Below the pieces are notes generated by a model, which was given only the letters and a program-made list of their open reading frames with translations, made no database searches and was not told the origin of the DNA. Position numbers and translations under genes: made by a program. DNA of 64,000 nt from Sphaerolaimus hirsutus (taxonomy: Eukaryota > Nematoda > Chromadorea > Monhysterida > Sphaerolaimidae), in contig OZ038454.1 of assembly GCA_964036195.1 (NCBI GenBank), positions 29,746,315 to 29,810,314 of the forward strand, read 5' to 3'. This document shows, piece by piece, positions 8,970-64,000 of this stretch (its first letter is position 1; every line of letters begins with the position of its first letter).

Positions 8970-9169
8970 NNNNNNNNNNNNNNNNNNNNNNNNNNNNNNN
9001 NNNNNNNNNNNNNNNNNNNNNNNNNNNNNNNNNNNNNNNNNNNNNNNNNNNNNNNNNNNNNNNNNNNNNNNNNNNNNNNNNNNNNNNNNNNNNNNNNNNN
9101 NNNNNNNNNNNNNNNNNNNNNNNNNNNNNNNNNNNNNNNNNNNNNNNNNNNNNNNNNNNNNNNNNNNNN
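8970..9169. other. Assembly gap (200 N)
   Basis: Exactly 200 N, a conventional placeholder for a gap of unknown size. Confidence 0.99.
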
Positions 9170-25128: not shown

Positions 25129-26208
25129 CATGGTTGGCAAAATCCCAGAAATAAATAAAAATAAAATATAAATAAAATGGAAAATTGAAGAATAAAATAA
25201 AATAAAATAAAATGGAAAATTTTAAAATAAAAATAAAAATTGTATACAAATTCGAATTTTTGTAAAATTGTATACAAATTCATATTTTTGTAAAAATTGT
25301 ATAAAAATTCATATTTTTTGTAAAATTTTCATCTTGTTGTTTATCGTTCAACCAGTTTATTCGCGGAGCTGGGGCAGTCCCAATATGAAATGAAATGTAA
25401 AGTGTCAATTGTCATGACAAATGTTAAGTAAAGTGTCAATTGTCATGACAAGTGTTGAGTAAAATGTCAATTGCGATGACAAATATAAATTATATTTGGT
25501 AACTGTAAAGCAGATTGTATCCGAATCTTATTTTATGTATCCAAATATTGTTGTTGTTTTTTCTATTCCAATTTTATGTGATCATTTGGATACAAAAAAA
25601 ACATAAGATTTGGATACAAAAACATAAGATTCTAACATAACATAACATAACATAAGAACATAACATAACACAAGAATATAACATAAATAAGATTCAGATA
25701 CACAATCTACACTTTGCATGACATTTGTCATCACAATTATACCTTGCTTGACATTTGAGATGTCAATTGACTCTTTACTTTACATTTGTCATGACAATTG
25801 ACACTTCTCTGACATTTTACAAATGTGCCCAGCACACTCCAGTAATCCTTCTACTGAAAATGCAAACCATTTTTATCAATAATTGTAACTTTACACTTGA
25901 AACTAGGTAACAATACCTACTGCATGCAACTTTTGCAAAGTAATGAAAAAATTTGTCACACGTTTTTCATGTTCAGGTCTAATTAACACATTTTTCTGAC
26001 CTTGCATGCAAGATTCTGATTTTTTGTAAAATTTCTGTAAAATTATTGTAAAATTTTTTGTAAAATGGTTCCATTTTATTATTTTATTAACATTTTGGAA
26101 TAAAATAAAATAAAATAAAATGAAACAAGAATAAAATATAAAAAAAATACATTTTTATACAATTTTTATACAATTTGTATACAAATGATTTTTATAAAAC
26201 CAACCCTG
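25129..26208. mobile_element. hAT-like element, CAGGGTTGG family, reverse orientation
   Basis: Left end CATGGTTGGCAAAATC, right end TTATAAAACCAACCCTG. The flanks CAGTGGAC/CTCTGGAC match at 6 of 8 bases. The interior repeats the TTTGGATACAAAAACATAAG and GTCAATTGTCATGACAA blocks of the 2,394 copy. A GGGGCAGTCCC end (about 25,372) marks a nested TGTAAA-family piece. Confidence 0.75.
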
Positions 26209-35880: not shown

Positions 35881-37405
35881 CGAGATTGGTTTAAAAAAAT
35901 TATTTGTATACAAATTGTATAAAAATTGTATTTTATTTTATTTTATTCCCAAAAGTCATGATTAAAATAAAATGACACCATTTTACAAAAATTTTACAGA
36001 AATTTTACAAAAAATTTACAAAATTTCACAAAAAATTTACAAAATTTTTACAAAAATCTGAATCATACAAAAAAAGGCCAGACGAAAGTTATTATAAGAC
36101 ATGTACTTTAAAAACGTGTGAGAAAATGTTCCATTACTTAGGTAAGTGTTGCCTGCAGTAGGCATTGTTTTGTTAGCTTGCTGCAAGTGTAAACATATAA
36201 TTGAGGCGTCTACTTCTGAAAGTCGACAAGTAACAAAATTGAAAATCTGGAGTTAGGCCCGGAAACATCATCTGCGGCTACTTCCGCACATTTTTTATCA
36301 TTTTCCATAAATTTTTGGACCTCTCATGCCCATATGGCAAAGTGCAAAATTTGACATTTTTTGGGAAAAAAGCAAAAATTTCGGGCAAGAAGTCGACAAG
36401 CATAAAATTTTTTTTGGGGAAAAAATAGCAAGAAATGCGATAAGTCCGTCATGGACAGCTACTTCTAAAAGTCGACAAGTCCTTAAATTGCCCATAAGGC
36501 AGAGTCGCCTTCACTGGGAACAAAAATGTTGTCTAGTGCAAGAAGTTGACAAGTACATTTTCCTCCCAAAAGCAGTTTTGCTCTGACCGAATGTAAATTT
36601 ATGGACACCCCATTTTTCACATATATGTTGAGAGCAGGGGCTGAAAATTTGACACTTTATTGTCAACATATGGAACTTGATGGAAAGCATGAGAGAGCCA
36701 AATTGGACACGCACCACGGGCCCACTGGAATTGGGTCTGGAACTTAAAATGCAATTTACTCAACATCGCATTTTGTGGACTTGTCGACTTTTAGAAGTAG
36801 AGGCCTCAATTATTGCTAACTTTGGTTTGCATTTTCAGTAGAAGAACTACTGGAGTGTGCTGGGCCCATTTGAAAAATATCATGCAAAGTGTCAATTGTC
36901 ATGTCAAATGTCAAGCAAAGTGGTAATTGTCATAACTTTGCAGAGTAAATTGTGTATCCAAAGCTTATGTTTTTGTATCAAAAGCTTATGTTTTTTGTAT
37001 CCAAATCTTTTGCTTTTATTGTATCCACATGTTCACATATGATTTGGATTCCAAAGCAATAAGATGTGGATACAAAACATAAAATTTGGATAAGAAACAT
37101 AAGATTTCAATACAATTTGCTTGACAATTGACACTTATTTATATTTGTCATGACGATTGACACTTCACTTTACATTTGTCTATACAGTTGATACTTTGCA
37201 TTACATTTTACCTAACATTTGACACTTTGCAAAGCTTGGGACTGCCCCAGTTTCACTAGAAACTCAAGCAACAAAATACAAAAACATACAAAGATATGAA
37301 TTTTAATACAATTTTATTAAAATTGGGATTTTTATGCAGTTTTTATTTTAATTTGAAATTTTCCATTTTATTTTTAGTTTTATTTGTGAGATTTTGCCAA
37401 CCAAG
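35881..37405. mobile_element. hAT-like CAGGGTTGG-family element in a tetraspanin intron, with a nested insertion
   Basis: Left CGAGATTGGTTTAAAAAAAT and right GAGATTTTGCCAACCAAG are diverged ends of the 2,394 family. The interior holds the shared CAAAAATCTGAATCAT and TTTTTGTATCCAAATCTT blocks. The TTGAGGCGTC element at 36,201-36,809 is inserted in it. No clear 8-bp duplication remains. Confidence 0.65.
36201..36809. mobile_element. TTGAGGCGTC-TIR element (copy 2, inverted)
   Basis: The ends TTGAGGCGTCTACTTCTGAA and TTAGAAGTAGAGGCCTCAA. Opposite orientation to 29,352-29,997. Confidence 0.8.
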
Positions 37406-38950: not shown

Positions 38951-39150
38951 NNNNNNNNNNNNNNNNNNNNNNNNNNNNNNNNNNNNNNNNNNNNNNNNNN
39001 NNNNNNNNNNNNNNNNNNNNNNNNNNNNNNNNNNNNNNNNNNNNNNNNNNNNNNNNNNNNNNNNNNNNNNNNNNNNNNNNNNNNNNNNNNNNNNNNNNNN
39101 NNNNNNNNNNNNNNNNNNNNNNNNNNNNNNNNNNNNNNNNNNNNNNNNNN
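38951..39150. other. Assembly gap (200 N)
   Basis: Exactly 200 N inside a TACCATAAATCCTCGAATAA-type MITE. Confidence 0.99.
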
Positions 39151-41930: not shown

Positions 41931-42269
41931 AGGACGCACAATCACAGGCCTCATTGTGCCCAATTCGTGTGTGTTTTTGCACACAATGCAGTCACTATTT
42001 ATTAGTACAAATGCCCTTTACAAACACGATCCACAATCTTGACAAACAGGGTTAGTAGATGGCAAAGTTGCTTCCCAAGAATGCAATTGCACATGTATAG
42101 GGGGTTGACTTGAGTTTTTAGGGGCTGAGTTTACAATTGAGGGTTGAGTTGATGGGTGTTTGCCAAATTAGGGGCTGAGTTTATGGGAGTTAACAATAAC
42201 ATTACCATAATCCTTAAGTGAGGCCCCCGGGGCTAAAAAATATAAATTGTGATATAATGCATTTGTGGG

Positions 42270-45200
42270 TTACTGATTACAATGATTTGAAATATGCACT
42301 CCATTCTGACAGTACATTACAATAACCCTGAAATTGAACCCAAAATGGGGCCAAAACTTTCAAATTGTGAAATGATGCATTGTGGGTTTCTAATTGCACT
42401 GATTTGATATATAATGCACTCCATTTTGACACTACATTACCATAACCCTGAAAATGAACCACTGGGGCCAAAAACTTTCAATTTGTGAAATGATGCAATT
42501 TTGGGTTTCTGATTGCACTGATTTCAAATTTAGGTTTCTGATTGCACTGATTTGATATATGCACTCCATTGACACTACATTACCATAACCCGTTAATGAA
42601 CCCATGGGGCCAAAAACTTTCAATTTGTGAAATGATGCAATTTTGGGTTTCTGATTGCACTGATTTCAAATTTAGGTTTCTGATTGCACTGATTTGATAT
42701 ATGCACTCCATTGACACTACATTACCATAACCCGTTAATGAACCCATGGGGCCAAATACTTTCAATTTGAGAAATGATGCATTTTTGGGTTTCTGATTGC
42801 ACTCATTTGAAATATGCACTTCATTTTGACACTACATTACCATAACCCTGAAAATGAACCACTGGGGCCAAAAACTTTCAATTTGTGAAATGATGCATTT
42901 TTGGGTTTCTGATTGCACTGATTTCAAATTTGGGTTTCTGATTGCACTGATTTGATACATGCACTCCATTTTGACACTACATTACCATAACCCTCAAAAT
43001 GGACCCATGGGGTTAAATACTTTCAATTTGAGAAATGATGCATTTTCGGGTTTCTGATTGCACTCATTTGAAATATGCACTTCATTTTGACACTACATAA
43101 CCATAACCCTAAAATGAACCCCCTGGGCCAAAAACTTTCAAACCATAAAATGATGGATTTGTGGGTTTCTGAGTGTAGCGATTTCAAATATGCCCAGGGC
43201 TTAAAAAATTAGAAATTGTGAAATGATTCAATGTGGGTTTCTAATTGCACTGATTTGAAATATGCACTCTGTTTTGACACTACATAACCCTGAAAACTAC
43301 ATAACCATAACCCTGAAAATGAACCTCTGGAGCCAAAAACTTTCAATTTGTGAAATCATTCATTTTTGGGTTTCTGATTGCACTGATTTCAAATTTGGGT
43401 CTCTGATTGCACCAATTTGATATATGCACTCCATTTTGACACTACATTACCATAACCCTAAAAATGAACCCATGGGGCCAAATACTTTCAATTTGAGAAA
43501 TGATGCATTTTCGGGTTTCTGAAAGCACTCATTTGAAATATGCACTTCATTTTGACACTACATTACCATAACCCTAAAAATGAACCCCCTGGGCCAAAAA
43601 CTTTCAAACCATAAAATGATGGATTTGTGGGTTTCTGAGTGTAGCGATTTCAAATATGCCCAGGGCTTAAAAAATTAGAAATTGTGAAATGATTCAATGT
43701 GGGTTTCTAATTGCACTGATTTGAAATATGCACTCTGTTTTGACACTACATAACCCTGAAAACTACATAACCATAACCCTGAAAATGAAGCTCTGGAGCC
43801 AAAAACTTTCAATTTGTGAAATCATTCATTTTTGGGTTTCTGATTGCACTGATTTCAAATTTGGGTCTCTGATTGCACCAATTTGATATATGCACTCCAT
43901 TTTGACACTACATTACCATAACCCTAAAAATGAACCCATGGGGCCAAATACTTTCAATTTGAGAAATGATGCATTTTCGGGTTTCTGAAAGCACTCATTT
44001 GAAATATGCACTTCATTTTGACACTACATTACCATAACCCTAAAAATGAACCCCCTGGGCCAAAAACTTTCAAACCATAAAATGATGGATTTGTGGGTTT
44101 CTGAGTGTAGCGATTTCAAATATGCCCAGGGCTTAAAAAATTAGAAATTGTGAAATGATTCAATGTGGGTTTCTAATTGCACTGATTTGAAATATGCACT
44201 CTGTTTTGACACTACATAACCCTGAAAACTACATAACCATAACCCTGAAAATGAAGCTCTGGAGCCAAAAACTTTCAATTTGTGAAATCATTCATTTTTG
44301 GGTTTCTGATTGCACTGATTTCAAATTTGGGTCTCTGATTGCACCAATTTGATATATGCACTCCATTTTGACACTACATTACCATAACCCTAAAAATGAA
44401 CCCATGGGGCCAAATACTTTCAATTTGAGAAATGATGCATTTTCGGGTTTCTGAAAGCACTCATTTGAAATATGCACTTCATTTTGACACTACATTACCA
44501 TAACCCTAAAAATGAACCCCCTGGGCCAAAAACTTTCAAACCATAAAATGATGGATTTGTGGGTTTCTGAGTGTAGCAATTTCAAATATGCCCAGGGCTT
44601 AAAAAATTAGAAATTGTGAAATGATTTGATGTGGGTTTCTAATTGCACTGATTTGAAATATGCAATCCATTTTGACACTACAAAACCCTGAAAACTACAT
44701 AACCATAACCCTGAAAATGAACCTCTGGAGCCAAAAACTTTCAATTTGTGAAATCATAAATTTTCAGGTTTCTGATTTCACTCATTTGAAATATGCACTT
44801 CATTTTCACACTACATTACCATAACCATAAAAATGAACCCCCTAAGCCAAAAACTTTCAAATCATAAAATGATGCATTTGTGGGTTTCTGATTGTAGCGA
44901 TTTCAAATATGCACTCCATTTTGACACTACATTACTAAAACCCTGAAATTGAACCCCTAGACCCAAAAATTTCTTATTGTGAAATGATGCATTTTGCAGG
45001 TTTCTAATTGCACTGATTTGAAATGACTCAATTTCAACTCTACATTACTGTAAGCCTTTAATTGAACCCATGGGGCTAATAAATTAGAAATTGTGAAATG
45101 ATGCATTTGTGGCTTTTTGATTGCCTTGATTTGAAATATGCACTTCATTTTGACACTACATTACCATAACCCTGAAAATGAACCCCCAGGGCCAAAAATT

Positions 45201-45540
45201 TTCAAATCATAAAATGATGTGTTTGTGGGTTTCTGATTGTAGCGATTTCAAATATGCACTCCATTTTGACACCACATTACTAAAACCCTGATAATGAACC
45301 CCTGGGCACAAAAACTTTCAATTTGTGAAATGATGCATTTGTGGGTTTTTTATTGCACTGATTTGAGATGTGCACTCCATTTCTACTCTACATTACCATA
45401 ACTTTTTAAGTCTAACCCCTGGGGCTAAAAAATTGAAAATTGTGAATTGATGCATTTGTGGATTGATGATAGTGATTTTTTGAAATATTCATACCATTTT
45501 CCAAATTAGGGGCTGAGTTTACAGGAGTTTCCAAACTAGG
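42270..45540. repeat. Tandem array with ~115-bp units and a 466-bp higher-order repeat
   Basis: Units contain TTTCAATTTGTGAAATGATG, GGGTTTCTGATTGCACTGAT and TTTTGACACTACATTACCAT. The marker GCCCAGGGCTTAAAAAATTA starts at 43,192, 43,658, 44,124 and 44,590, a spacing of exactly 466 each time, with near-identical sequence between. Flanking units are more diverged. Confidence 0.95.
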
Positions 45541-47060
45541 AGCTGTGTTTACAGGATTTAGAGGGGGTCCCCATGGGGTGCCATTTTTGGGGGGTCTCCA
45601 GGGGGTGCCATTTTCTGGAGGTACATATGGGGGTGCCATTTCAAGGGGGTCCACATGGGATGCCATTTTTTGGGTGGTCCCCAGGGGTGCCATTTTTTGG
45701 TGGTCCTCAGGGGGGTGCTATATTTTTTTTTGCGGGGGGGGGGGGGGGTCCATATGGGGTGCCATTTTGAGGGGGGGTCCCCAGGGGGGTGCCATTTTTG
45801 GAGAGTCCCCAGGGGGAGCCAACTTTGGGTGGGTCCCCAGGGGGTGCCATTTTTGTGGGGGTTCCTAGGGGGTGCCATGTTTGGGGGGTCCCCAGGGGGT
45901 GCTATTTTTGGGGGGTCCCAAGGGGGTGCCATTTTTAGGGGGTCCCTAAGGGGTGCCATTTTCTGGTGGTCCTCAGGGGGTGCCATATTTGTGGGGCCCT
46001 AGGGGGTCCCATTTTTGGGCGGTTCCCAGGGGGTGCCACTTTTGGGGGGTTCCCCAGGGGGTGCCATTTGGAGGGGGGTCCCCATTGGGGTGTCAGTTTT
46101 TGCAAGCCTCTGAGAAGTGGGTACCTAAAGCAGGATTCTCTCCAACCTTCAGTTGGGTTTTGTAGAGTCACCAGGGGGAGCCAACTTTGGGTGGGTCCCC
46201 AGGGGGTGCCATTTTTGTGGGGGTTCCTAGGGGGTGCCATGTTTGGGGGGTCCCCAGGGGTGCTATTTTTGGGGGGTCCCTAAGGGGTGCCATTTTTGGG
46301 GGGTCCCTAAGGGGTGCCATTTTTTGCTGGTCCTCAGGGGGTGCCATATTTGTGGGGCCCTAGGGGGTCCCATTTTTGGGCGGTTCCCAGGGGGTGCCAC
46401 TTTTGGGAGGTTCCCCAGGGGGTGCCATTTGGAGGGGGGTCCCCATTGGGGTGTCAGTTTTTGCAAGCCTCTGAGTAGTGGGTACCTATAGCAGGATTCT
46501 CTCCAACCTTCAGTTGGGTTTTGTGGTTCTCTACAATTTATACCACAAGGATTTACAAACACAAAAAGAACAGCAAAGCACAAATGTAACCAATTGAAGA
46601 TTACAACAAAGTTTGACACCTTGCAAAAACCACACTATCATATCACAAAACCTATACCACACAGAATGCACAGGGTCCCCAGGGGGGTGCCATTTTTGGA
46701 GAGTCCCCAGGGGGAGCCAACTTTGGGTGGGTCCCCAGGGGGTGCCATTTTTGTGGGGGTTCCTAGGGGGTGCCATGTTTGGGGGGTCCCCAGGGGGTGC
46801 TATTTTTATGGGGTCCCAAGGGGGTGCCATTTTTGGGGGGGCCCTAAGGGGTGCCATTTTCTGGTGGTCCTCAGGGGGTGCCATATTTGTGGGGCCCTAG
46901 GGGGTCCCATTTTTGGGCGGTTCCCAGGGGGTGCCACTTTTGGGAGGTTCCCCAGGGGGTGCCATTTGGAGGGGGGTCCCCATTGGGGTGTCAGTTTTTG
47001 CAAGCCTCTGAGTAGTGGGTACCTATAGCAGGATTCTCTCCAACCTTCAGTTGGGTTTTG
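45541..47060. repeat. G-run tandem array (GGTGCCATTTTTGGGGGGTC)
   Basis: About 30-base units of GGGGTGCCATTTTTGG with CCCCAGG. Many G4 and longer runs on the plus strand could support quadruplexes. Proline/tryptophan-rich frames on the other strand follow the repeat period and are not genes. Confidence 0.95.
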
Positions 47061-49702: not shown

Positions 49703-50775
49703 GTAGTACTTGGCGCTTTTTTGGCGCTTTATAAAACACTAGCGCCAAGCGCCAATGGCGCCACAACATTATAGCGCCGAGCGCCAAAAGCGCCATGGCG
49801 CTTTTCGGTAGCACAGCCAACGATGGGTAAGTTCTCCAAAAAAAACACTTTCTGTGTTTTGAGTTTTTTTTTCGAAAAAAAACTTGAGTAACTCTGTTTT
49901 TATTTCTGTGTTTTTTGTTAAAACTCTAGTTTTTTTTAGTTTTTTTGAAAAAACTTGAGTTTTCCCCCAAAAAATTCTGATTTACAGCATTTTGATGTGG
50001 AAACAGTGTTCTTATAAAATATTGGTTTTGCACATGTTTTAACCCCACATAACATCTGTGTATTCATTCAAGTGTCGGAAAAGTCCATAAAAATGTCCTC
50101 AATGAGGACATCCACCCACATCACAACACCAGCATCAACAAAATGCTCACAAACAACAATTTACGCACTACTCCAAAATTCTTCAATGGATGTGCACTGT
50201 ATGGAAGACTACAGAATTGATTTGAACTACAACTATATTCAAACATGTCCACCAGGAGATGTGCATGCCATCTTTAATTTATTTTTTGTTCCATCATAAA
50301 ATATGAATACATTATGTACATATTTACATGCTTTACATGCATATCTTATCTTGTTTAGTTTAACTGAATTCATGTGCATTCTGAAAATGTGTTCAACCAC
50401 TTCGCTGAAAAAACTCAAAAAACTTTTCTGTGTTTCCGTGTTTCTGTGTTCTCCAAAAAAAACTCATTTGAGTTTTGAGTTTTTCAAAATTTGTGAGTTT
50501 CCGTGTTTCTGTGTAAAACAAAAACACAGAAACTCAATGAGTTTCTGTGTTCAATTTCTGTGTTTTTTCCATCGTTGAGCACAGCGCCAAGCGCCAATGG
50601 CGCCACAGCAAAAAGGCGCCAAGCGCCAATGGCGCCACAGCAAAAAGGCGCCAAGCGCCAAAAGCGCCATGGCGCTTTTTGCTTTGGCGCTAGCGCCAAG
50701 CGCCAGCGCCATGGCGCATTTTGCTTTTGCGCTAGCGCCAAGCGCCAGCGCCATGGCGCTTTTACATCACTACTG
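49703..50775. mobile_element. GGCGCC-rich element split by a CAACGATGG element
   Basis: Left half to CGGTAGCACAGC, right half from AGCACAGCGCCAAGCGCC, ending GCGCTTTTACATCACTA. Confidence 0.8.
49818..50577. mobile_element. hAT-like element, CAACGATGG TIR, 760 bp
   Basis: Starts CAACGATGGGTAAGTTC and ends TTTTTTCCATCGTTG, with an exact 8-bp duplication AGCACAGC. The sub-terminal TTTCTGTGTTTTGAGTTT repeats are inverted at the other end. Confidence 0.9.
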
Positions 50776-50789
50776 ACAATATAATAAAC

Positions 50790-51095
50790 ACCCTGGAAAC
50801 AGATTTAATTCTCCCCACAGATTTTGTAGTATAGGGCATACGCACCATAGATTTTCAACGTTCCCCCAGGTCGACGCACACGCACCGAGAGCAATGCAGT
50901 TGGTGAAATAAGGGAAAGTTTTCATCGACGTCGTCGATATTGCAATATGGGCGACTCCGAGGTAAACTTTCCTGTATTTCACGACCTGCCATGCTCTCGT
51001 GCGTGTGCGCCGACCTGGCGGAAGGTCGAAAATCTATCGTGCGTATGCCCTATACTACAAAATATGTGGGGAGAATTAAATCTGGTCCCAGGGAG
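50790..51095. repeat. Fold-back element
   Basis: Arms of about 115 bases, AGATTTAATTCTCCCCACAG ... and its complement ending GTGGGGAGAATTAAATCT, around a GACGTCGTCGATATTGC centre. Confidence 0.8.
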
Positions 51096-51243
51096 TATTT
51101 CCAGAAAACACGGTATATAATATTCATGATAATATGAGTTTTGTGGCTTGAGTCACCGTCAGAAAAAAATGGTATAGCACGTTTCCTTTCTGTAAATGCA
51201 TCCGAGTTGATAAATATATAGGCTGAAATACTGATTTTTCTTG

Positions 51244-51365
51244 TTGGCGCCATTCTGGCGCCTGGCGCCATTGTTTCTGGCGCCATTTGGCGCCCGGCGC
51301 CATATTTTCAGATGGCGCCATTGGCGCCTGGCGCCATGTTTTCTGGTGCCCTTTGGCAAGGCTTA
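51244..51365. repeat. TGGCGCC repeat fragment
   Basis: TTGGCGCCTGGCGCCAT words, related to the GGCGCC family but without clear ends. Confidence 0.5.
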
Positions 51366-51488
51366 TCCCTTGAAAATTGCCCGCTCGGGCCGACGTTCAA
51401 AGTGATGTTTCAAATGCGATTTTGGAGAAACCTAAAATGATGGAGATACCGGATGGATGGAGATACATTCGGAACTAGAACATTTGTA

Positions 51489-51660
51489 GGGTAATTGGGT
51501 GGGTAAAATTGGGAGGGTAAAATTGAGTGGTGATTCTGGGAGGGTAAAATTGGGAGGGTAATTGGAAGGGTAAAGTTGGGAGGGTAATTGGAAGGGTAAA
51601 ATTGGGAGGGTAATTGGAAGGGTAAAATTGGGAGGGTAATTGGGAGGGTAAAATTCTCCA
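51489..51660. repeat. GGGAGGGTAAAATT minisatellite
   Basis: Alternating GGGTAATTGGAAG and GGGTAAAATTGGGAG units, about 14-15 bases each. Confidence 0.9.
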
Positions 51661-52303
51661 GTGCCCCATAAGGACGGTGAATTCTCAAAAATATCAGTTT
51701 ATTTTCCAGCGGTCCACTCACAGGGGGGGTCGCCAAAGGGCTGAACCTTCCGTGAAAAGTAGTGAGGGGTGTCGTACTCGTGTACACCCCTCAAAATTTT
51801 GATCAATTCCCCCCAACAGTTTTAGATTAGCAGTCCGTTATACTGTAAAAACACGGGGTGCCAGATCTCGTTTTTTTACCTGTTTTTCCAAAAAAATCTT
51901 CACGTATACAGCGGCCCACACTCAGGTGAGTCGCCGCCCCCCCCCCCCCTGCAGTGTATAGTCGAAGCGGGGTCTAAAGTATATACCCCAAAAATTTCAA
52001 TTTTAACCCCCCCCCCTAGAACCGGAGTTATAGGCTCCGGAACCGACTCAACTTTTTGGTGCCGGACCTGGCGTGTCCCCTGTTGAAATGCTTCTAAATT
52101 TATGTGCCCAAATCGCAACTTTTTTTCTATGGCGACATTTTTCCTGGAGCTTTTTCATCACTAGATTGATTTCATACTGTATTTCTTATAATAGAATGGC
52201 ATACCTTAAAATGAACGGCACCTCCAATAGAACGCAGGTAGAAATAACATTGGGAGGCTGCCAAAATACCAAAAAATTCAAATGCGTGGGGAGAACGTCC
52301 GAG

Positions 52304-53159
52304 CAGAGTTAGAGTTGGAAAAACGTATTTACGTTTACCCGAAATACCCGGTTATTCGGGTATTTATACTTACGTTTACGTTTACGTTTTCCAAAAATAC
52401 CATTACGTTTTGTTACGTTTTCCTCACCAAAATACCCGGGTACTAGGGAAAACGTAAAAAAACTTGTGATCGTTCACGCGTGCACATGTTCTAATGAGCC
52501 GCACAACCTAAAAAGTGACTGCACGCTTGCACTTACACATGGAATGCTGGGTAGATATTCATAAATGTGTTCAAATGCTGAACACTTTTTGTTTGTTTGT
52601 GGAGTCTTTATAAATTTTTTTATGATGAATTCTGACGACGCACTTGCAACAACTGTGAAAAGCACACGTTTTAAAACTGGCAGAGTGAGTGCAAGCTCTG
52701 GATCCAATCCCAGACTCTGTAATATGCCCTGTAAAATGTAAAATTTCATGCAAATGTCAAAACTTATGTAAAGTGCTCAGCGAAATGGCAAAGATTTGCC
52801 ATTTTCCAGGGCATTTTGCATGACTTTAGACACTTTGCATGCCATTTGACATTTTCAAGGCATTTTACAGGGTCTGGGACTCCCCCAGAATCACCAGCGT
52901 AGTTGGATTGCACCACACTTAAAACAGAAAGTGGTGCAGATGGAGCGATTTACACATCTAAAGGTGAAAATAATGGTATTTTCCAAAGCACAATGGCAAA
53001 TACTGTGTGTAAGTAAAAATTATACGTTTATGTTTCTTTTTACGTATTCCTTGGTATTTTAAAAATACCTTACGTTTTAGTATTTATACTTTTGATTTGG
53101 AAAAGGTATTTACGTTTACGTTTACGTTTTCCAAAAATACCAGTATTTGCACAACTCTG
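52304..53159. mobile_element. hAT-like element, CAGAGTT...AACTCTG, 856 bp
   Basis: Exact 8-bp duplication CGTCCGAG at 52,296-52,303 and 53,160-53,167. Sub-terminal TTTACGTTTACGTTT repeats. It contains a nested TGTAAA-family copy at about 52,713-52,886. Confidence 0.9.
52713..52886. mobile_element. Copy of the introner-like TIR family nested in an hAT-like element
   Basis: ATCCCAGACTCTGTAATATG ... CAGGGTCTGGGACTCCCCCAG with an internal GCAAAGATTTGCC palindrome. Its ends match the tetraspanin intron. Confidence 0.7.
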
Positions 53160-53464
53160 CGTCCGAGGTGTTCAGAACTTGATTGAAGGGTTGTTTTCAC
53201 TTGTGGTGTTGTTTTTATTGATGCTCCGGATATTAAAATGTGCACAAAATGCACAAAATGTCACTAAACATACTGTGTTTCAAATGAAAAAATGTGTTAA
53301 AAAATTACAAAAAAAAATACAACGGCAGCCTCCAATAGAATGGCAGGTAAAAAGATGAAAAAAGGGGCTCTTCTATATTAGAAGAAATACGGTGGTATTT
53401 ATATTAGTTTTTTAGGTTTTTATTCAGATGGGTCGCGCTACATTCATTGTCAAGTGTGCCGTTC

Positions 53465-53652
53465 GTGAATAGCGTTCCAAAAACGAAATCGCTGAGAAAA
53501 TATAAATGAGAGATTTAATTATATTTTTTTCTCTTAAATAAAATATAATTAAATCTCTCTGAAAAAAAACTGAACAAAATATAATTAAATAATAGATTTT
53601 TCTATACTTAATTATATTTTTAAATATAAATGTCACAGAGATTTTTGGAACA
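53465..53652. repeat. AT-rich palindromic element, GTTCCAAAAA ends
   Basis: GCGTTCCAAAAACGAAATC ... GAGATTTTTGGAACAC with GAGAGATTTAATTATAT inside. Related to 13,860-14,475. Confidence 0.7.
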
Positions 53653-54023
53653 CTATTCGTGAAGTATATCGCTGGGTCGTTTACCGTCGCTCTACACATT
53701 TGCGTGTGTATTCACAACTGCGCGCGGCACCTTGCAGTTGGGGGGGGGGCTTTGTTTGCTTATTGCCAGCTCAAATACGTGTAAACATTGCGTGGCCCCA
53801 TTGTGCTGCACTGCGGGGAAATGTTCGAGGCAGGTACCTGGGCTAGCATTGAAAGATGGCTGATTTTGAGCAAATGTAATTAAATACCTACACCTGAATC
53901 AGAAAATTTCACCAAAACAGTAAATCTGTTTTTTTCAACAGGAATAAAATCTAAACGCGATATTTCTTACATTTTCTGCCATTTTTCATCTAGAGCCGCT
54001 CCCGAGATTTTTTCACGTACAGC

Positions 54024-54427
54024 TACCGTATTTCTTCTAATAGAAGAGCGCCGTTCTATTTTTTTCGTCAACTTTTTACCTGCCGTTCTATTGGAGGTGC
54101 CGTTCTATTGGACGCTGCCGTTCTATTTTTTTCACCATTTTTTTTCATAGATCTCTCAATTCAAAATAGCATTATTTTGAATGAAGCTTAGCATTTTTAG
54201 AATATCAGAGCATCAATTAGAGATTTAACACCTACTTGAATGCTATGCATATTCTCACCATCCGTTTTTGATTCATTTATGTGTTTTGAAACACCCCCAA
54301 CGCAACTCCTACCTATTGGTGGTGCCATTCAATTAGAGGCTGCCGTTCTATTGTTTTCATGAGCGCAAAAATGTGCCAAAACCTGCCCTTCTATTTGAGG
54401 TGCCGTTCTATTAGAAGGAATACGGTA
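54024..54427. mobile_element. CCGTTCTATT-type MITE with TACCGTATT ends
   Basis: Starts TACCGTATTTCTTCTAATAG and ends TTAGAAGGAATACGGTA. The interior repeats GCCGTTCTATTGGAGGTGCC. Confidence 0.85.
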
Positions 54428-55150
54428 ATCGCTTTTTTACTGTTTGCACCCAAGTTTGATGGAAGCGTGATCGGATCAAATGACGCTTATTCGAGGTTAA
54501 TAATTGTGGGTTGTTAAGTTTATCAAGTCACATAGGTACCTCCTAATTCGGATGGACTATTCTGTTAGCAAAATACCTTTTGCAAACAACGCTCTGCAGT
54601 TTTGAGTGCTTCTGAAATTCAACTGGACTTGATCGATTCACTATGGTTGATCTGGGCCAGTTCCGCAAGTGGACACGTCAAATGAGAAGTGAAAAGAACA
54701 AGAAAGAAAAAAGAAAAACGTGAAGGGTGAATTCTGTCTTAGACAGTATTGTTTCTGATAACGTTTACGATGATTCAGTGGTGTAGTATTTGATTGAATT
54801 ACTACAACATTATGTTGTAGTAATTCAATCAAATACTACAAGTGGGAAATGTGCCGATTGTTCGCTTCCATCGGAACTTTAGAATTGAAAGTTCAAACTT
54901 ATTCAAAAAACTTTACGCCAAAATATCACTTCGATTTTCACTTTTCATTTCACTTGTCCTCTTGCGGAAGTAGCACCTGGTTAGACTCGTGCAGCCAACC
55001 TCCCGTACAACAAATCCGTAACCTGGACGCCCAAACCCGCCACCTGGCAGCAGTCCCGCGCTTTGCAAAGTGGCATCCAAAATGTCAACCATTGAGTAAG
55101 AAATCTTATCGTTTTCTATTTTTATTGACACTTTGCTATTAAACATTTTA
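54428..55150. other. No supported gene; contains a perfect short palindrome
   Basis: At about 54,790-54,840 the sequence GTAGTATTTGATTGAATTAC is mirrored around ATGTTG. A fold-back relative of the 12.9-kb intron (GCCAGTTCCGCAAG) lies at 54,658. Confidence 0.5.
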
Positions 55151-55154
55151 CCAT

Positions 55155-55640
55155 AGTTGTTAAAACGTATTTACGTTTACTCAGAAAGTACTTATACTCG
55201 AGTACTGAGTAAATACATTTACGCATACTTTGAAAAAGAACCTGCACTCGCGTTTACGCAAACTTGTTTGAAGTACTCGAGTACAGAAAACGTATTTCCG
55301 TCAGGTTTTGTGATAGACTTATTCAAGGGATAGATTGGGGAAAGGGAGAAAAAAGTGAAAACTAGGGTGAAAAAATTCGAAAAATAGCTTAAAATCGCAA
55401 ATAACACATAACCTAGTGATTTTAGTGAATTTAGTGATTTTGAGTGGAAATTGGGGCAAAATTCCTCAAAAATTTTCACTTTTACGTTTTCTGGGCAGAA
55501 AAGTATTTAACTAATGTTTACTCATGAGTAAAAGTAAAAAAATTACTTTACGTTTTCTGTACTCGGGGTGTGAGTAAAGACTAAATACTTAACGTTTACG
55601 TATACTTTGAAAGAAGTTGAGTACTTTTAACAACTGAGCA
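55155..55640. mobile_element. hAT-like element, AGTTGTTAAAA...TTTTAACAACT
   Basis: Starts TAGTTGTTAAAACGTATTT and ends AGTACTTTTAACAACTGAGC. ACTCGAGTACTGAGTAAATA words inside. Related to 28,040-28,530. Confidence 0.7.
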
Positions 55641-55667
55641 TTTTACACGGTGCGGGACGGCCGCCAG

Positions 55668-57112
55668 CCGAGAGCGCGATTGTCCGCCGCCGCGGCAGCT
55701 CGACGCCCGAACGGCGCTGCGGCGCGGCGACGCGGCCCAAAGTGGCACTAGAGCGGGCGCGAGTATGCGAAGGAACGCAAATGCCCCCGTCGGAAGTGCG
55801 GACCTGCGCCGCCGCGCCGCTGTTTGGATTGCATCGAGTCGGATCGAGTCGAAACGGACGTCGCGGCCGCATTCGATCCACTGTGCACGTGGACGCCCTG
55901 CACCCGAGTCGCTCGCAAACTTCTGGCTCAGACCTCGCGTGCTAGAAATCACGTCAATTTTTTTGATTTTGTTTTTACTATAAATTACTTTTTTGATGTC
56001 TATGTTTTTCTAAAAGCAGTCTTCGAATTTTTTATTTTTTCAATATTGGATTATTGTATTTTCGATATTTTTGAGTAATTTTGGGCTCATTTTTATGTTT
56101 TACGGGTGCGCTTCCGGTGTTGGTCTGTTGCCACGGAACTAGTTGCACATTTTTTGCCATGAATAGATCCATGTCAAATTGAAGTTTTTACCATATTGTG
56201 TTTTTTGCATTTTACGTGAATTTTGCACCAAAATACCGGAAAAAATTGGACACACTTTCCGAAATTTCAAATTTCTCCAGAAAATCTCATTTCAAGTGTT
56301 TCTTCTCACCCTGGAAAAAAATTCGAAAAAGCTTTCTAATTTCAACAAAACATTTTCCATCGCCAGTAGGTGCTGACCTCAGTGGCCATTCTGCAGCCGC
56401 TACATACTTTTGGGCGCCCGCAAATGGACACTTGCAGCAGACCCACGCTGCTTTACTATCAGCAGTCGCAAAGCCGTCCGAACAGGCCTTCAGGGGGCAG
56501 TCCCGAGCCCTGTAAAGTGTGAAGTAAAGTGTCAAATGTAAAGTCAAATGCAAAGTAAACTGCCAAAAGTAAAGTAAAGTGTCAAATGTAAAATCAAATG
56601 CAAAGTTAAGTGTCAATCAAAACAAAAAAGAAAAGAATTTATTACTCAACTTTGCATGCCAATTGGCAGTTTACTTTGCATTAGACTTTACATTTGACCC
56701 TTTACTTAACACTTTACAGGGCTTGGGACTGCCACCAGGTGTTTATCAGCGGCAGCGTCAGGTGTTTCATGCGCGCTACCTCACTTGGCTGCTGCTATTG
56801 CTCAATGTCATCACTTTGGTATGTGCTTTTGAGTGTGAGCATGTGTCTGTCTGGTGTCAGTCCCGCACCCTGTAAAATGTAAGGTCAAATTGTAGGTAGA
56901 AATATGGCTAGCTAATCATGCGTAAAAACATAACGACAATTTTGTGCAGACACTCCGACGACTCGAGAACGACCATATGCGACCGAATGACGACCCGCGG
57001 TGCACAGGGAAGTCACAGTGAACGTGCGGTTCGCTGTGCACTGCAAATCCGCCAACGAAGCCGCAGCCCCAGGACGGTACGCCCGAATGGACACTTCTGC
57101 GGCCATGAAATT
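55668..57112 (+). other. GC-rich coding-like islands, strand and frame unresolved
   Basis: Four islands stand out from the AT-rich background: 55,668-55,945, 56,380-56,508, 56,742-56,861 and 56,940-57,112. Plausible acceptors precede three of them on the plus strand (GGCCGCCAG, ATTCTGCAG, GCCACCAG), and the third has the donor-like TCTG|GTGTCAGTCCC. One frame of the third island gives a membrane helix (RYLTWLLLLLNVITLV). The second and fourth read openly on both strands and codon bias does not decide between them. The 56,509-56,741 spacer is a TGTAAA-family TIR element. I do not recognise a product. The retroelement begins just after the last island, which it may interrupt. Confidence 0.35.
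56509..56741 (+). mobile_element. TGTAAA/TTTACA TIR element between two coding-like islands
   Basis: GGGGCAGTCCCGAGCCCTG ... CAGGGCTTGGGACTGCCACCAG. Internal units AAGTGTCAAATGTAAAG are repeated and inverted. The same family as 37,511-37,701. Confidence 0.65.
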
Positions 57113-57727
57113 ATTAATTGTTCTTTTCCGTTAATTATTTTATTACTTCCCGTGTGACGCTAATTTTTTAATTTTTATTTTAGCGATTCATTAATTAAGC
57201 TAATTAGGTTACCCGCATTTTTGAGTTAATTAAGTGAATACTTTCGTTTTCTTTTGCATTTCCCAATATGTACTTTCGAACGTTATAATTATTAGGCTTT
57301 CACCAAGTTTACATTTTTGATTAAAAGGGTGCAGTGTCTGGGAATGATTAGAAAGGCTTTTTACGTTTCTAGTTAAGCTAACAGGTGTTGACTCTGTTAA
57401 ATGCTTAGACGCCCCGATAGATAACATTCAGAAATTTCCCCGACCAAGTGCATTTTTATGTAGGACTAGGTAATGGGTGGAAAAGTGGCAAACGGCAATT
57501 ATTGTCGGCATGCGACTGCAAGACACATGCAGAGCACAGTTTACAGTGAAGAGCACAGCAGTGCCAATTAATTATTCCCATCACCCAGGGTGATTGGCGA
57601 ACTCACAAGTGCTAGTGTCTTGTGGCGTGTGTTCAGGCCCGAAGTTTCCAACCCTTACCCGGCAATGCAATAACCTTGAACAACCCCCGCAAATGAGCGT
57701 TCTTTCTGTGGCCTTGGTCGGGCGCGC

Positions 57728-57736
57728 TATAAAAAT
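57728..57736 (+). promoter_or_regulatory. TATA box
   Basis: TATAAAAAT, preceded by a GC-rich stretch, about 690 bases before the polyprotein frame opens. It probably drives the retroelement transcript. Confidence 0.5.
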
Positions 57737-58204
57737 ATTTTTCACCTAAAGGGGCGCAGGTTGATAACACGTGTCACACCACCTGCTATCGACTGTACCG
57801 TAACCTCTGAATAGAAACCCAGTTTCCCGACACTCACCTACGAGATAAATTGTATTTTAATTACGTCATTGGTAATTACAGTTACTTTACACTTGGTTTA
57901 ACTCATGTTTTACCCGTTTTGTCTAATTAGATATTTTTCCCGCATTTAATTAATTTACTTGTGCCTTGTACGTTATGTTTACAGTTTTTCCAGTGATCAT
58001 TGAATTTGCCTTATTAATTCGCTTATTATGGTTAATTGTTGTGTCTTTGATTTAGTATTCATTTCATTTATGGTATATTTTGGTGATTATAAAACGCGCT
58101 GATTTTACATTTTTTCACCCACTAGAGGCTATACGACTCACTTGAGCTATTGTGAATTTGACTCTGACTACATTGCTAAACAAAGTTCCAGTGAAAAAAA
58201 GTAC

Positions 58205-58222
58205 TGGCGCCGTTCCTGATTT
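58205..58222 (+). other. Candidate tRNA primer-binding site
   Basis: TGGCGCCGTTCCTGATTT starts with TGGCGCC, as do Lys- and some Ser-type primer sites. The preceding bases do not end in a clear CA, so this is tentative. Confidence 0.3.
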
Positions 58223-58425
58223 GCGTGTAAACATCCCCGTACCATAAAACCAATTATTTATTTAATTAAGCACGCATTTGGAAGCGCAAAGGGACCGGAA
58301 TTTGCAATTCTCTGCCGCGGCAAAATTCAACGAGTGGTGTATTTTTGTGGTAAAAACGGAAACTAGTAAAATTAGTAAAAACGTAAAATATCTGACAACT
58401 GGTAGCGTAGCGAGTGGTTTCCTAA

Positions 58426-61400
58426 GCAAGCCATAAAGTTTTCTGTCTGGGGCGCCTGATCAACGCCTCTACAAAAAACGGCTTCACGGATAACGAGTCA
58501 CCCCAAAGGGAATTGAGATCGAGGGGGCCAGCAAGCTTACAAGGGGACACCATAGAACAAGTTTGGCACGCTGCGTTGGAGAAGCAAAAACAAGCACGAA
58601 GGCGCGCGCGACAACAGAAGGCTGGGCAAGAAGTGGACGCACAACTTGTTGCAGCTGAGAGTCAAGCAGGAGACAGTGAGTCGAACGATTCGGTTAACCC
58701 TGAAACAGAAGCGCCGGAAGCGCTAGAGGAGAGTGAAAGTCAGCGCTGGTCTGGACAGACAGCTGAGGACACCCCGGTAATCAGATTATCAACGGTTGAA
58801 GGTGCAGGGCCTGCGCCAGACAGTTTCAGTCAGTGGAAGACGCCGGCTGTACCGACAGCGGCACGGCAGCTAACGTCCAGCGCAGAAGCTGAAGAAGCGC
58901 CTGGGACAAGCAGACAAGCCGCAGGAAAGGAAGCAGGTAAGACAGGTAAGTGGTCTAAGCTTCGGAGGACATTGGGTTGGAGCGCGGGCAGCTCATCCAT
59001 ATCGCCTGGAGTGCGATCGGGTTCTGAAGTCGGTTCAGACGGATACGTTGGTGACAGCGAGCCTCTAGGGCAGCCGTCGATTCAACGTGATTATCCTGTG
59101 ATTGCAGCTGAGCTTGGAGCTACTGCAGATCAATTTCCCGTGATTGAAAATACCGTAGAGGAATTATTGGAGACAGCGGCGCAGAGTGGAGACACTTCCC
59201 CGGCGCTGCAGTTAAGCCCCCCGAAGAGCACATCGACGCCGAGAGACGTGTCAGGCAACAGCAGCCGGAATTTATCGAGCGACCAGTCGAGATCGCAGAG
59301 CGCAACTGCAAAGGCTAGACGCCAGTTAATTAAGACCGAATTTTCAAGTAAACCCCCCGTGATAATTATTAGCAGTCCTGCTAGCAGAATGACAAGCAAT
59401 GGCGCAAACCAGACGGCGGCCCCGGCGCTGGAAGACAGATACGCGAATGTCAATAATGCTAATTTAATTTACCAAGCTACCATAATGGACCTGGACCCGG
59501 TGCAAACAACGCCAACCTGTGCACAATGGACACCTAAAAAGGCATGGGCAGCTGCAAAGAAATGGGCAAACATGATGAGTCAGGCGAGACCGGTTGGTGC
59601 TTTTTCACAGAATGGTGAACCAGGGGACTTGCGTATGGTGGCGCTAATTAAAACTGCTATGAATTTATGGGGAAGTGACCCAGTCAATGAGGTACCCAGG
59701 GTGGAACATTACTTGAGGGAATTCGAAGCGCACCACAGCGCACATGGCGATGATATAGTTGATCTGGCGACTGCGTACCAACAGCATAATCAAGCTCTAC
59801 AAAATCAGAACGCGACGCTGGGAGGAAATTCGCCGGCCAGTGGTCAGCAGCCAATAGTACTGACCAATGGTCAAGCCGCGCCCTTGCAATCATCAACGAC
59901 ACCAGCGGCGCCCCTGTCGACAGCTGGAGCAAGCCAGGTGAGAACTGTTGCGCAGCGACGCGCTCGATCCCGCTCGCCGGCATCGTCAAGAAGCGCGTCG
60001 GCTAGGTCCGAAGTGGCAGGGCCCACGGACCCGGGACAAAATTGGCAATTAGAACAGAGCAATGCGGCAGTTATTACAGCCCTAGCACAACAATGTGGAT
60101 ATTTTCGCGGTAAACCAAATGAGGGTTTCAGGGAATGGAGAAGGAGCTGGGACACGGTATGTGACGCGCTGCGCATAAAATTACAGGAGCGGAAGCCGCT
60201 GGTAAAATTATTTCTGAAAGGCAGTGCCCGGGCCATTTTCAACACGCGATACAGAGAATTGCGCGACCTGAACTACAAGGACATGATGCAAGCGCTGGAG
60301 AAGTTCTATGAAAATCCGAATGACAAACATCATGCACAGAGAGAGATTTTTGAGACGCGACAGGGCGCAGATGAGTCGGTACTGGAATGGGCGGTACGTT
60401 TGGAAAAGTTGATAAAACGCGCCTATCCAGGCATGGGTCATGAAAAGCGAGGTGACACATGCATGATAAAATTCCATGGAGGACTGAGGAATGAGATTCG
60501 GCGCAATGTACCTGTCACGGCTTCTATCACATGGAAGGAAATGGTTGATAACGCACGTGCTCAGGAGAGCTTTTTGGAGGCAGAACAAAGCCAGAATAAG
60601 GGAGAAAAATCTAAACAGGATGTGGTTGCCAGCGCGACTGACAAGGTAATGGACAGGTTGATGGCGCTGAACATGCCCGCCATGGCCGGACTGCCGTCCC
60701 AGGCCGACAAGACGCTAGAGACAATGGAACAGAAAATGACTGAGAGTGTTGCTAAATTTGACTCGGTGCACCAAGAGATAGCGAAGAAATTAGCGCAACT
60801 GGGCGCGTTGGAAGGTAAACTTTTGGGATTGAACAGGGACCCCCCTAAATTGCCCCCGCGCAAGTTTGACAAAGGATGTTGGGAATGTGGCTCTGAAGAG
60901 CACATCAGATATGAGTGTCCGAAACTCTCCCCTGAACAAAGGGAACAGTATCTCCAAAGGAGCCGCGGCGGCGGAGCATCCAGAGGAAATGGACGTGGGC
61001 GCGGCGGAGGACAACGTGGTGGATATCAGAGAAATGACCAAGCTCAAGCGATGCAGCCAGGTATGATGCCCATGCAATATGCATACCCGCAGTGGCAACC
61101 AGCCCAGCCGATGCCTGTGCAGCCGGCGCAGACGGTACAGAGGGCTGGTGATATGAACATGCAACCGCAGATGATGGCTTATCAAACGCCGCCAGCTAAT
61201 TGGATGGCTATGGGACCGGATGGGCGCATGCAACAATATAACATGCAACCGGTACAGGTGAGCAATCCCCACGTAGAGTCGCTGAACCCCACGCGAGTGT
61301 CCAGTACGACTGGAATGACCATGCATGTGCGCGAAGATGATCGCTGCATGATGATACGTCCCGTTAACAAATTAATCCCTGTGATGCAAGGCTTGGAATT

Positions 61401-64000
61401 AGAGGATGAGGAACCTGACGAACTGGTTCCAGAGTCACCCGAAGAGCAGCAGCGCACTACTGGAATGCATGTGCTCGCGCAAGAGCGGGAATTTTGGATC
61501 AAACCCTGGGCATATATGCGAACTGAAAAAGGTTACTTGTTTCGAACTACTTGGCTGGCCTTCTTACGCAGGATCGGAATGCATGATTTGAGGGAAACGG
61601 ACTGTACGCTGTGGCCTAATTGCCCTGCAGACGACCACTCGGACACGCTGACGGAGGTGCCCTTGGACGTGCTCATGAACATCAATCTGGACCCGTTCCT
61701 GTACGCCACGCCGGCCGCTCTGCCGCCGCGCACGGGATCCAGCAACCAGATAGACAGGTATATGGGCTTTTTGTCTACTGAGGAAGGGGTGCGTCCCGCG
61801 CCGCGCGCGTACTCAGAACCCCCCTACATGCCCCAGGTCGCACAGTCGCTGTTTTTTGTGTTGACAATTGGATTAATTATAATGGGATTAGCCTTACTAC
61901 CGGGCGCGGGCGCGACTACCATGCCCTCGTTTCCATTGTTATGCAGTGACTTGACGGATCACTACGATTTATACACGTACCCCCCCCTGCCCAATTGCAC
62001 GGCTATTGTTGACACTACGGCGTCATTAGAACGGCCACGAAAATTGACACTGACAATCTACAAGCGAAATATGGTAGAATATCGTGCGGCAGCACACAGG
62101 TGTGTGGCCTCTATCAGAACGGCAAAGACGTATCAGAACTTCTGGGGCGATGTCACGCTGGAAAAGTTTGATTCTAACCCCCGATCTGTGGGCGCCGCCG
62201 AGTGCGAAGGCATGATTAAATATCACAAGTGCAACAATGGGCCCATGACCCCTGTGAGTGATTTGGACAACGCATGGGACACTCAATACCCCACCAATGT
62301 TAGTTACTCAGGACATGGACTGTACTGTTGCAAATGGGTGAGTGAAACGACGCCACACTGTGGGTTGTTTCGAGGGGAAGTACGAATGAGATATGGAGCC
62401 AACACCATGCAAAGCACGCTGGGTGATGTTAGTAAGTGCAATTATGAAATGGGTGCATGCACACTAGAAGACGGCAGCCAATTAACATGGAAACCGAACC
62501 CGAAGGCGGAATGCCCTTATGAAAAATGGCGTGAAATGCATGGACGCATTAGACAGGATATCTGGCTAGCCGATGATCATACGCTATCATTGTCTTTCAG
62601 AGCCCATGAAGAGGTTGAGTCATGCGGCATTAAATTATGGAAATCGGACCAGGATATTGTAGTGGCGCCATTTGAAAAGGCAGTGATTCGAAGCGTCAGA
62701 CAAAAACGAGCGCAAGGTCGACCCACGCTGGGAATAGTGAGCGCAGGTCAATTAGCAGCCAGCATGCAGGCGGTATACGAAACAGCAGAACAAACCATGC
62801 GTGCACAGGCCGTAGCCACCTGCAAGAACGTGCAACACTTCCAAGAATTTGTGCGACTGGCCATGAGTGAACACGCCACTACGACAGCCCGCTGGTACAT
62901 GAATGATAATGAAATAATTGCCAAACCCGCGCCGGATGGATTTTTGGTTCACAAATGTTTTGCGGTAAAAACGTACGAGATAATGAAAGAGAAGAAGTCT
63001 CCAGAATGTTACGAAACAGTACCTGTGCAAGTTAGTGTACACGGGCAAAATGTGACGTTGCACATGAATAGGCTGACAAACATTTTGCATTTTCAAGCGA
63101 TCCCGGGATCATGCACCAATGCGCACAATCGTGTGGTAATGTTAAATGGACAGTGGTACAAATATCTACCGGAAGTCGGCGGCCTGGAACATTTACCTAT
63201 GTATAACACACACAGTTTCCCGCAGAAATGGCAACAGGAAAAAGTCAAGGATGTGCATCATCAGATTTTTGCCGCCACGACTATGTACAACTTGTCAGAA
63301 TTATTGCCGACGACCACCCTGAATGACGTATGGCATGCATATTCAATCGTGCGGCAAATTACGCAGGGGGCGGAGCCGAGGGTGGAATCACACATGCAAA
63401 GGCATCGAACCTTGGCAAAATCGGTCTTAGCGCTGGGATGGTGGGATTTTGACACCTGGCGCACCTGGCTACAAGTATGGATTTATCTGGTATGTGCACT
63501 GGTCACCATGCAGTATTTACTAGCCGCGCTCATGGCTGCAGCGCCGGAAACGGCCGTGACTTTGGTGAACAGGGCAAAGGAAAAAATTAAAAGGCGACCG
63601 AAGACAGAAGGAAAGTCCAATATCATTGTCGAATTGGCTGAGGACCGCCCTAACGAACAGGTAAAGGTAAGAACGGTAATTAACCCGTGCGTGGGAATGC
63701 CAAGTGGCATGCCCGCACTCACGGGCGCGCGTCGTTTTCCCGCTATACAATACAGTATCAACAGAAAATGCGATCTGGAAGAAGAATCGGTGTGCATGAT
63801 CACTTTCTCGACGGAAGAAAGAGACAACATCCATCAAGTAGCCAATCGACGTGAAGAGATTGTGCATGTGTACTACAGCCCATCCATTACCATAACCATT
63901 GACGGGAGAGAATATCGGAGATGTCTACTGGACACAGGCGCCATGCGTTCATTATGCAATAGGGACGTGCTGATGCGACACAAGGAAAAGGCTACTAAGC
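58426..64000 (+). CDS. Retroelement polyprotein Gag-Env-Protease (continues past the window)
   Basis: One frame is open for 1,858 codons with no stop or shift. It opens after a TAA at 58,423 whose context TTTCCTAAG could be a splice acceptor. The first ATG is codon 322 (59,389), so initiation is non-AUG or uses an upstream exon. Residues 1-560: charged, Ser/Ala/Gln-rich. About 566-722: Retrotrans_gag-type capsid region. 818-831: CCHC knuckle. About 846-870: RGG-rich. 1142-1160: membrane helix. About 1165-1680: Cys-rich ectodomain. 1425-1428: RQKR. About 1682-1706: second membrane helix. 1836: catalytic Asp of LLDTGA. Reverse transcriptase and integrase are not in the window. No decay is visible, suggesting a recent insertion. 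Confidence 0.9.
60121..60590 (+). other. Gag capsid-like domain (Retrotrans_gag type)
   Basis: Reads FREWRRSW ... LVKLFLKGSARAIF ... YKDMMQALEKFYENP ... RQGADESVLEWAVRLEKLIK ... MIKFHGGLRNEIRRNV. The spacing of the conserved Trp, Phe-Leu-x-Gly and 'ES-V-L-E-W' segments is that of Ty3-type and Arc-like Gag capsid domains. It probably forms the particle shell. Confidence 0.75.
60877..60918 (+). other. CCHC zinc knuckle and following RGG box
   Basis: CWECGSEEHIRYEC fits C-x2-C-x4-H-x4-C exactly. It is followed by SRGGGASRGNGRGRGGGQRG (60,961 onwards). Together they form the nucleic-acid-binding end of Gag. Confidence 0.9.
61849..63540 (+). other. Envelope-type glycoprotein segment within the polyprotein
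   Basis: Starts with the hydrophobic helix LFFVLTIGLIIMGLALLPGA, which could act as an internal signal sequence cleaved after GAGA. The ectodomain has many Cys, sequons at NCTA, NVSY, NVTL and NLSE, and a block with GACTLEDGSQLTWKP and a downstream Cys that resembles class III fusion glycoproteins of the gB/chuvirus kind (weak, by pattern only). RQKR at 62,698-62,709 fits the furin consensus and is followed by an Ala/Gln-rich helix. It ends with the helix VWIYLVCALVTMQYLLAALM. In place it would mediate membrane attachment and fusion. Confidence 0.7.
63880..64000 (+). other. Retroviral-type aspartic protease, N-terminal part
   Basis: SITITIDGREYRRCLLDTGA places a beta-strand, a turn and the catalytic Asp-Thr-Gly-Ala as in retroelement proteases. 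The window ends 70 bases after the active-site codon, so the flap and the C-terminal part are not seen. Confidence 0.8.

Follow-up and report, generated by a model that had tools for sequence, protein, structure and literature searches.

A predicted Monjiviricetes-type fusion glycoprotein encoded in frame between Gag and a protease motif in a probable Ty3/Gypsy-type retroelement from Sphaerolaimus hirsutus

A single plus-strand frame in a 64,000-nucleotide stretch of the genome of the nematode Sphaerolaimus hirsutus (assembly GCA_964036195.1, contig OZ038454.1; hereafter the window) encodes first a Ty3/Gypsy-type Gag with a single CCHC knuckle, then an ectodomain of 16 Cys that contains an RQKR site and is preceded by a signal helix and followed by a second helix, and finally an LLDTGA motif (Table 1). 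On balance, this is probably the intact-looking left part of an endogenous Ty3/Gypsy-type retroelement, in which a captured fusion glycoprotein of the Monjiviricetes type, known from negative-strand RNA viruses, is carried in frame between Gag and protease and made as Gag-Env-Pro-Pol. This reading is based on the continuous frame, the profile matches of Gag and of the glycoprotein, and the two helices that flank the Cys-rich RQKR region. The part that falls within the window would comprise a presumed 5' LTR and leader, followed by Gag, Env and the start of the protease.

Table 1. Features of the element on the plus strand, with positions counted from the first base of the window
Feature	Position	Strand	Evidence or remark
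TATAAA, candidate promoter box in presumed 5' LTR	57728..57733	+	motif; another at 58088
Candidate primer-binding site, starts TGGTAGC	58400..58417	+	two bases after ...CTGACA
In-frame extension before first ATG, 321 codons, Ser/Ala/Glu-rich	58426..59388	+	stop-free
Splice-donor-like CAG/GTAAGT, perfect consensus	58946..58951	+	best donor score in 57701-63990
Gag	59389..60876	+	starts at first in-frame ATG, followed by one at 59485; Retrotrans_gag match 60202-60441
CCHC zinc knuckle, single	60877..60918	+	one CX2CX4HX4C match in frame
Linker between Gag knuckle and Env, 303 residues, Pro/Gln/Arg/Gly/Met-rich	60919..61827	+	composition
Acceptor-like site, exon start 61572	61572..61581	+	rank 4 of 330 AG sites at 59000-63990 (simple matrix, approximate weights)
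Env signal helix	61828..61914	+	ATG start; hydropathy peak 2.44 (at 61849)
Env ectodomain, 524 residues, 16 Cys, 4 sequons	61915..63486	+	PF24664 match 62404-63177
RQKR, furin-type cleavage site	62698..62709	+	sole R-x-K/R-R match found in frame
Second transmembrane helix	63469..63549	+	hydropathy peak 2.05 (at 63487)
LLDTGA, putative aspartyl protease start	63925..63942	+	motif; window stops 58 bases downstream

The open reading frame

The frame is stop-free over 58426-64000, up to the end of the window, and comprises 1858 codons. None of its segments contains a stop, whereas the other two plus frames carry 14 and 23 stops over the 5' extension, 32 and 32 over Gag, 16 and 15 over the knuckle and linker, 39 and 30 over Env, and 7 and 7 after Env. 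Open runs in 200 dinucleotide shuffles of the element region reached at most 232 codons in any of the three frames, and a chance open frame was rejected on this basis. There are no N runs inside the element, the only two of the window being at 8970-9169 and 38951-39150. The lack of stops as compared with the other frames and the shuffles, together with the distance of the N runs, led us to conclude that the frame is real and that its parts were not joined by an assembly gap. A preliminary description of this DNA had reported a continuous frame leading from the CCHC knuckle through a signal helix, a Cys-rich ectodomain with RQKR and a second helix to LLDTGA. All of these parts were located, and neither a stop nor an N run occurs between Gag and Env, where a stop or a misassembly would, according to the same description, have undone the claim. 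At the threshold used, hydropathy analysis of all 1858 residues detected the two hydrophobic helices but no other. Four of the ten N-glycosylation sequons in the frame fall within the ectodomain.

As controls, ten further open frames in the window were scanned with Pfam (E up to 1); nine had no match and the tenth matched a Pao peptidase. The whole frame had no match in an NCBIfam scan, and Rfam and tRNA scans across the 64,000-nt window gave no match either.

The window holds one copy of the element. The presumed 5' LTR was not found a second time in it (50000-64000 was checked, and 56000-64000 was compared with the whole window), nor were RT, RNase H, integrase or a 3' LTR found within the window, whose end falls just after the protease motif. 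A single copy with no pol past this motif, where the window ends, would also be seen if this were a former element since turned into a host gene, or a chimera in decay, in which Env came to adjoin Gag through later insertion or misassembly. We regard this as very improbable, given 1858 codons without a stop or N gap and a frame maintained both before and after Env.

Gag and the linker

The Gag is of the Ty3/Gypsy (Metaviridae) type, that is, a Ty3-type capsid Gag with a CCHC motif. The Retrotrans_gag profile matched residues 593-672 in a search with the whole frame (E 8.6e-6) and was above its curated cut-off on the Gag piece (E 1.7e-7). PNMA was likewise above its curated cut-off on the Gag piece (E 1.5e-6), scoring 24.1 bits on the whole frame, just under the 25-bit cut-off, and Ty3_capsid on the Gag piece remained below cut-off (E 0.0069). 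The zinc knuckle is present as a motif, the best zf-CCHC profile score being 17.9 bits, below the cut-off of 20.8 bits. Membership in BEL/Pao was considered and rejected, since Gag matches Ty3-type families. The nearest relatives by sequence in the PDB were the Arc2 capsids, at weak significance (E 0.0038); Arc is a tamed Ty3/Gypsy Gag. A search of 5.8 billion protein sequences with the Gag region found no relative at E up to 0.1, under a requirement for exact shared 5-residue words and a limit on candidate length that may let distant relatives escape. Scanning viral contigs with Gag returned two pattern matches, neither of which was confirmed. The linker that follows the knuckle had no match to any Pfam family over 61015-61827 at E up to 10.

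The Env glycoprotein

The Pfam profile Monjiviricetes_fusion (PF24664; curated cut-off 27 bits) matched three Env spans with 30.9, 31.1 and 33.0 bits (E 9e-8 to 2e-8), the whole frame with 28.4 bits and the piece after RQKR alone with 27.8 bits, all above cut-off. The piece before RQKR alone had no match to PF24664; its only hit was to BDV_G, the Borna G profile, and was not significant (E 0.42). Two things therefore underlie the predicted family assignment: a single curated profile, whose match lies mainly downstream of RQKR, and the anatomy. In this anatomy, twelve of the ectodomain cysteines precede RQKR and four follow it, and the signal helix ends in Ala-Gly-Ala, a candidate signal-peptidase site as judged by eye. 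The preliminary description had placed a viral-type glycoprotein in frame between Gag and the protease start and had proposed a Pfam profile search of this segment as a check; as PF24664 exceeds its cut-off on each of five query spans, that placement holds.

Relatives of Env were sought in several ways. Against 5.8 billion protein sequences, the Env region within the long frame had no match at E up to 1e-3 (exact 5-residue words needed, candidate length limited), and a word-based search with Env alone, which may miss distant relatives, was likewise empty at E up to 1. A viral-contig scan with Env gave two pattern matches, neither confirmed, and comparison with PHROGs gave no match. Searching the PDB by sequence produced no credible relative (best E 0.38 and 0.66), and an AlphaFold model of the ectodomain built from the single sequence had a pLDDT of 35, too low for a fold search.

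Protease start and left end of the element

The LLDTGA motif lies 125 residues downstream of the second helix. Profiles applied to the protease fragment ranged from E 0.07 to 0.16 overall, all below cut-off (on the piece, Asp_protease_2 E 0.073 and RVP E 0.14). The window ends so soon after LLDTGA that the putative protease is called from this motif. At the other end, one TATAAA is a candidate promoter box inside the presumed 5' LTR, a role assigned by inference only because the window contains no 3' LTR. The candidate primer-binding site presumably resembles the 3' end of the animal initiator tRNA-Met, with only its first bases fitting, and an alternative candidate, TGGCGCC, is found at 58205.

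The ATG-free leader and splice signals

The first in-frame ATG corresponds to residue 322 of the frame, a fact absent from the preliminary description, and the 321 codons ahead of it are free of stops. In none of 2000 shuffles did any frame stay open over this extension. Its codon score is 0.029 in the main frame versus -0.113 to -0.339 in the other five (-0.174 and -0.339 in the other plus frames), a modest margin, and no Pfam family matched it at E up to 10. No ATG occurs in any plus frame over the 1318 bases of 58071-59388, whereas 2000 shuffles contained 16.6 on average and at least 7. This ATG-free stretch overlaps the fully open frame. It may reflect either non-AUG initiation of an extended Gag or a leader for scanning that unspliced and spliced RNAs share.

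In retroviruses the envelope usually comes from a spliced RNA of its own, and the same anatomy might be used in that way here, with Env produced mainly from a subgenomic RNA spliced from a donor at 58946 to an acceptor at 61572 or 61817. We consider this a realistic, though less probable, alternative. Among donor-like sites of the element, the one in the ATG-free leader scores highest, and with approximate matrix weights its score is not reached at any of the 3205 GT sites on the remaining plus strand of the window (to 57700); a second donor-like site, CAG/GTAAGA, is at 58937. The first ATG after the acceptor-like site at 61572 comes 7 bases on, at 61579, and lies in the Env frame, and Env also has its own ATG ahead of the signal helix. 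Together, the perfect donor, the leader without ATG and an acceptor-like site followed by an in-frame ATG make a spliced env mRNA possible. On the other side, the would-be intron carries an open frame throughout. The two top-scoring acceptors, at 61947 and 62601, fall inside Env, so that the acceptor score by itself is not telling, and the site at 61817 ranks only 59 of 330. The first ATG after 61817, at 61828, has T at -3. Splicing from 58946 to 61817 would keep the frame of the extension, as happens one time in three by chance, while splicing to 61572 would not. We have put the single polyprotein somewhat ahead of a spliced env because the frame is unbroken through all parts, which the spliced design does not need. 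The preliminary description held that the glycoprotein is made as part of every polyprotein; this may not be so, since the donor, the leader and the acceptor at 61572 would also suit a spliced env mRNA.

Proposed working of the polyprotein

If the element makes a single polyprotein, as we favor, a full-length RNA would yield Gag-Env-Pro-Pol on translation. In it, the helix at 61849 would act as an internal signal that directs the ectodomain into the ER, and the helix at 63487 would stop transfer, leaving both Gag and Pol in the cytosol; with two helices and no third, Gag and Pol are predicted to lie on one side of the membrane. Signal peptidase could cut after Ala-Gly-Ala and free the N-terminus of Env, furin could cleave RQKR, and the element's own protease would separate the cytosolic parts. 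This threaded arrangement goes beyond the sequence and draws on an analogy with flaviviruses, whose polyprotein runs from capsid through an internal signal and glycoprotein to the enzymes; no kinship is claimed. With Env between Gag and Pol, either all three are made together in a polyprotein threaded twice through the membrane, or splicing provides an escape. A separately made Env would rely on these same two helices.

Comparison with known elements

Contrary to the preliminary description, which knew of no described element with this order, the giant Gypsy-like Burro elements of planarians have env in frame between gag and PR, an arrangement that a 2019 paper calls the first case of its kind (PMC6431247). 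The same text gives Burro a length of more than 30 kb with LTRs and ORF1 proteins of 4,873 and 5,140 residues, in which two or three CCHC knuckles occur along with domains of MATH, BIR, ankyrin and BCL2 type (PMC6431247). That paper was the sole match in the open-licence literature on in-frame or between-gag env, and other precedents may exist. Like the present element, Burro places Env between Gag and protease within one ORF and has an Env that matches mononegavirus fusion glycoproteins; it differs in its extra domains and two or three knuckles, in contrast to one knuckle and a 303-residue linker without known domains here (PMC6431247).

The shared unusual order, with a mononegavirus-type glycoprotein in a Gypsy-like element, would be accounted for if our element were a member of the Burro lineage or a near relative rather than the product of an independent capture, and such kinship is compatible with either way of making Env. 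However, no MATH, BIR, ankyrin or BCL2-type domain was matched by Pfam at E up to 1 in the visible 1858 residues, which have one knuckle; the region beyond the window could hold such domains, and Burro was compared by its published description. We judge this kinship possible but somewhat unlikely. Still less likely, in our estimate, is the full combination in which a glycoprotein of a negative-strand RNA virus was captured a second time, independently, at the gag-pro junction of a compact element with one flavivirus-like membrane-threaded polyprotein and an extended Gag that starts without AUG from the ATG-free leader. If the element is unrelated to Burro, the gag-pro junction would have received a captured glycoprotein more than once.

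The one-polyprotein design has a precedent as well. The hookworm Atlas virus likewise has an RNA-virus-derived envelope within one uninterrupted polyprotein, but it is a BEL/Pao element with the order Gag-Pol-Env and a class II phlebovirus-type glycoprotein (PMC9094657). Both the order (Burro) and the one-polyprotein design (Atlas virus) have thus been published. The difference here is that the element seems compact and, within the visible 1858 residues, lacks the extra Burro domains. Such a compact example would make the question of co-production versus splicing testable.

Captures of related glycoproteins are described in several other reports. The mosquito Anakin element also captured a chuvirus-type glycoprotein but belongs to the Pao family, whereas the Gag here is of Ty3/Gypsy type (PMC7642597), and chuvirus-type glycoproteins are found in mosquito Pao elements (PMC7642597, PMC10084718). 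Jingchuvirales glycoproteins adjoin Gypsy fragments in Hymenoptera and Coleoptera, where no clear evidence of capture by Gypsy elements was reported, and one from Bemisia tabaci lies inside an unclassified complete element (PMC10084718). The Env of lokiretroviruses is similar to Mononegavirales fusion glycoproteins; these viruses are a vertebrate retroviral lineage with a dual RNase H domain (PMC9040795). TelKA of bdelloid rotifers is a retrovirus-like LTR element with an Env-like glycoprotein of a negative-strand RNA virus, although of paramyxovirus F type and in a separate ORF3 (PMC5408684). Odin elements were set aside as a comparison, no env-like gene being predicted in the excerpt consulted, and the accessible passages of annelid LTR surveys contain nothing on env between gag and pol.

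Other features of the window

The tenth control frame belongs to a BEL/Pao remnant at 20347-21486 (+), in which an RVT_1 match below cut-off (E 7.4e-5, 23 bits) is followed by the Pao retrotransposon peptidase above cut-off (E 3.3e-7). The window also contains many tandem repeats. Satellite arrays at 42229-45461 have two unit lengths, about 116 and 466 bases; the 466-base unit is present in 4.2 copies with 97% matches. The 27-base G-rich repeats at 45563-47000 have open frames on both strands; the one scanned, 46492-47025, had no Pfam match. Foldback or MITE-like inverted repeats are located at 50788-51096 (98-base arms, 91% complementary) and 56493-56736 (88-base arms, 88%), and stretches similar to the latter occur near 2866-2993, 25419-25483 and 37127-37250.
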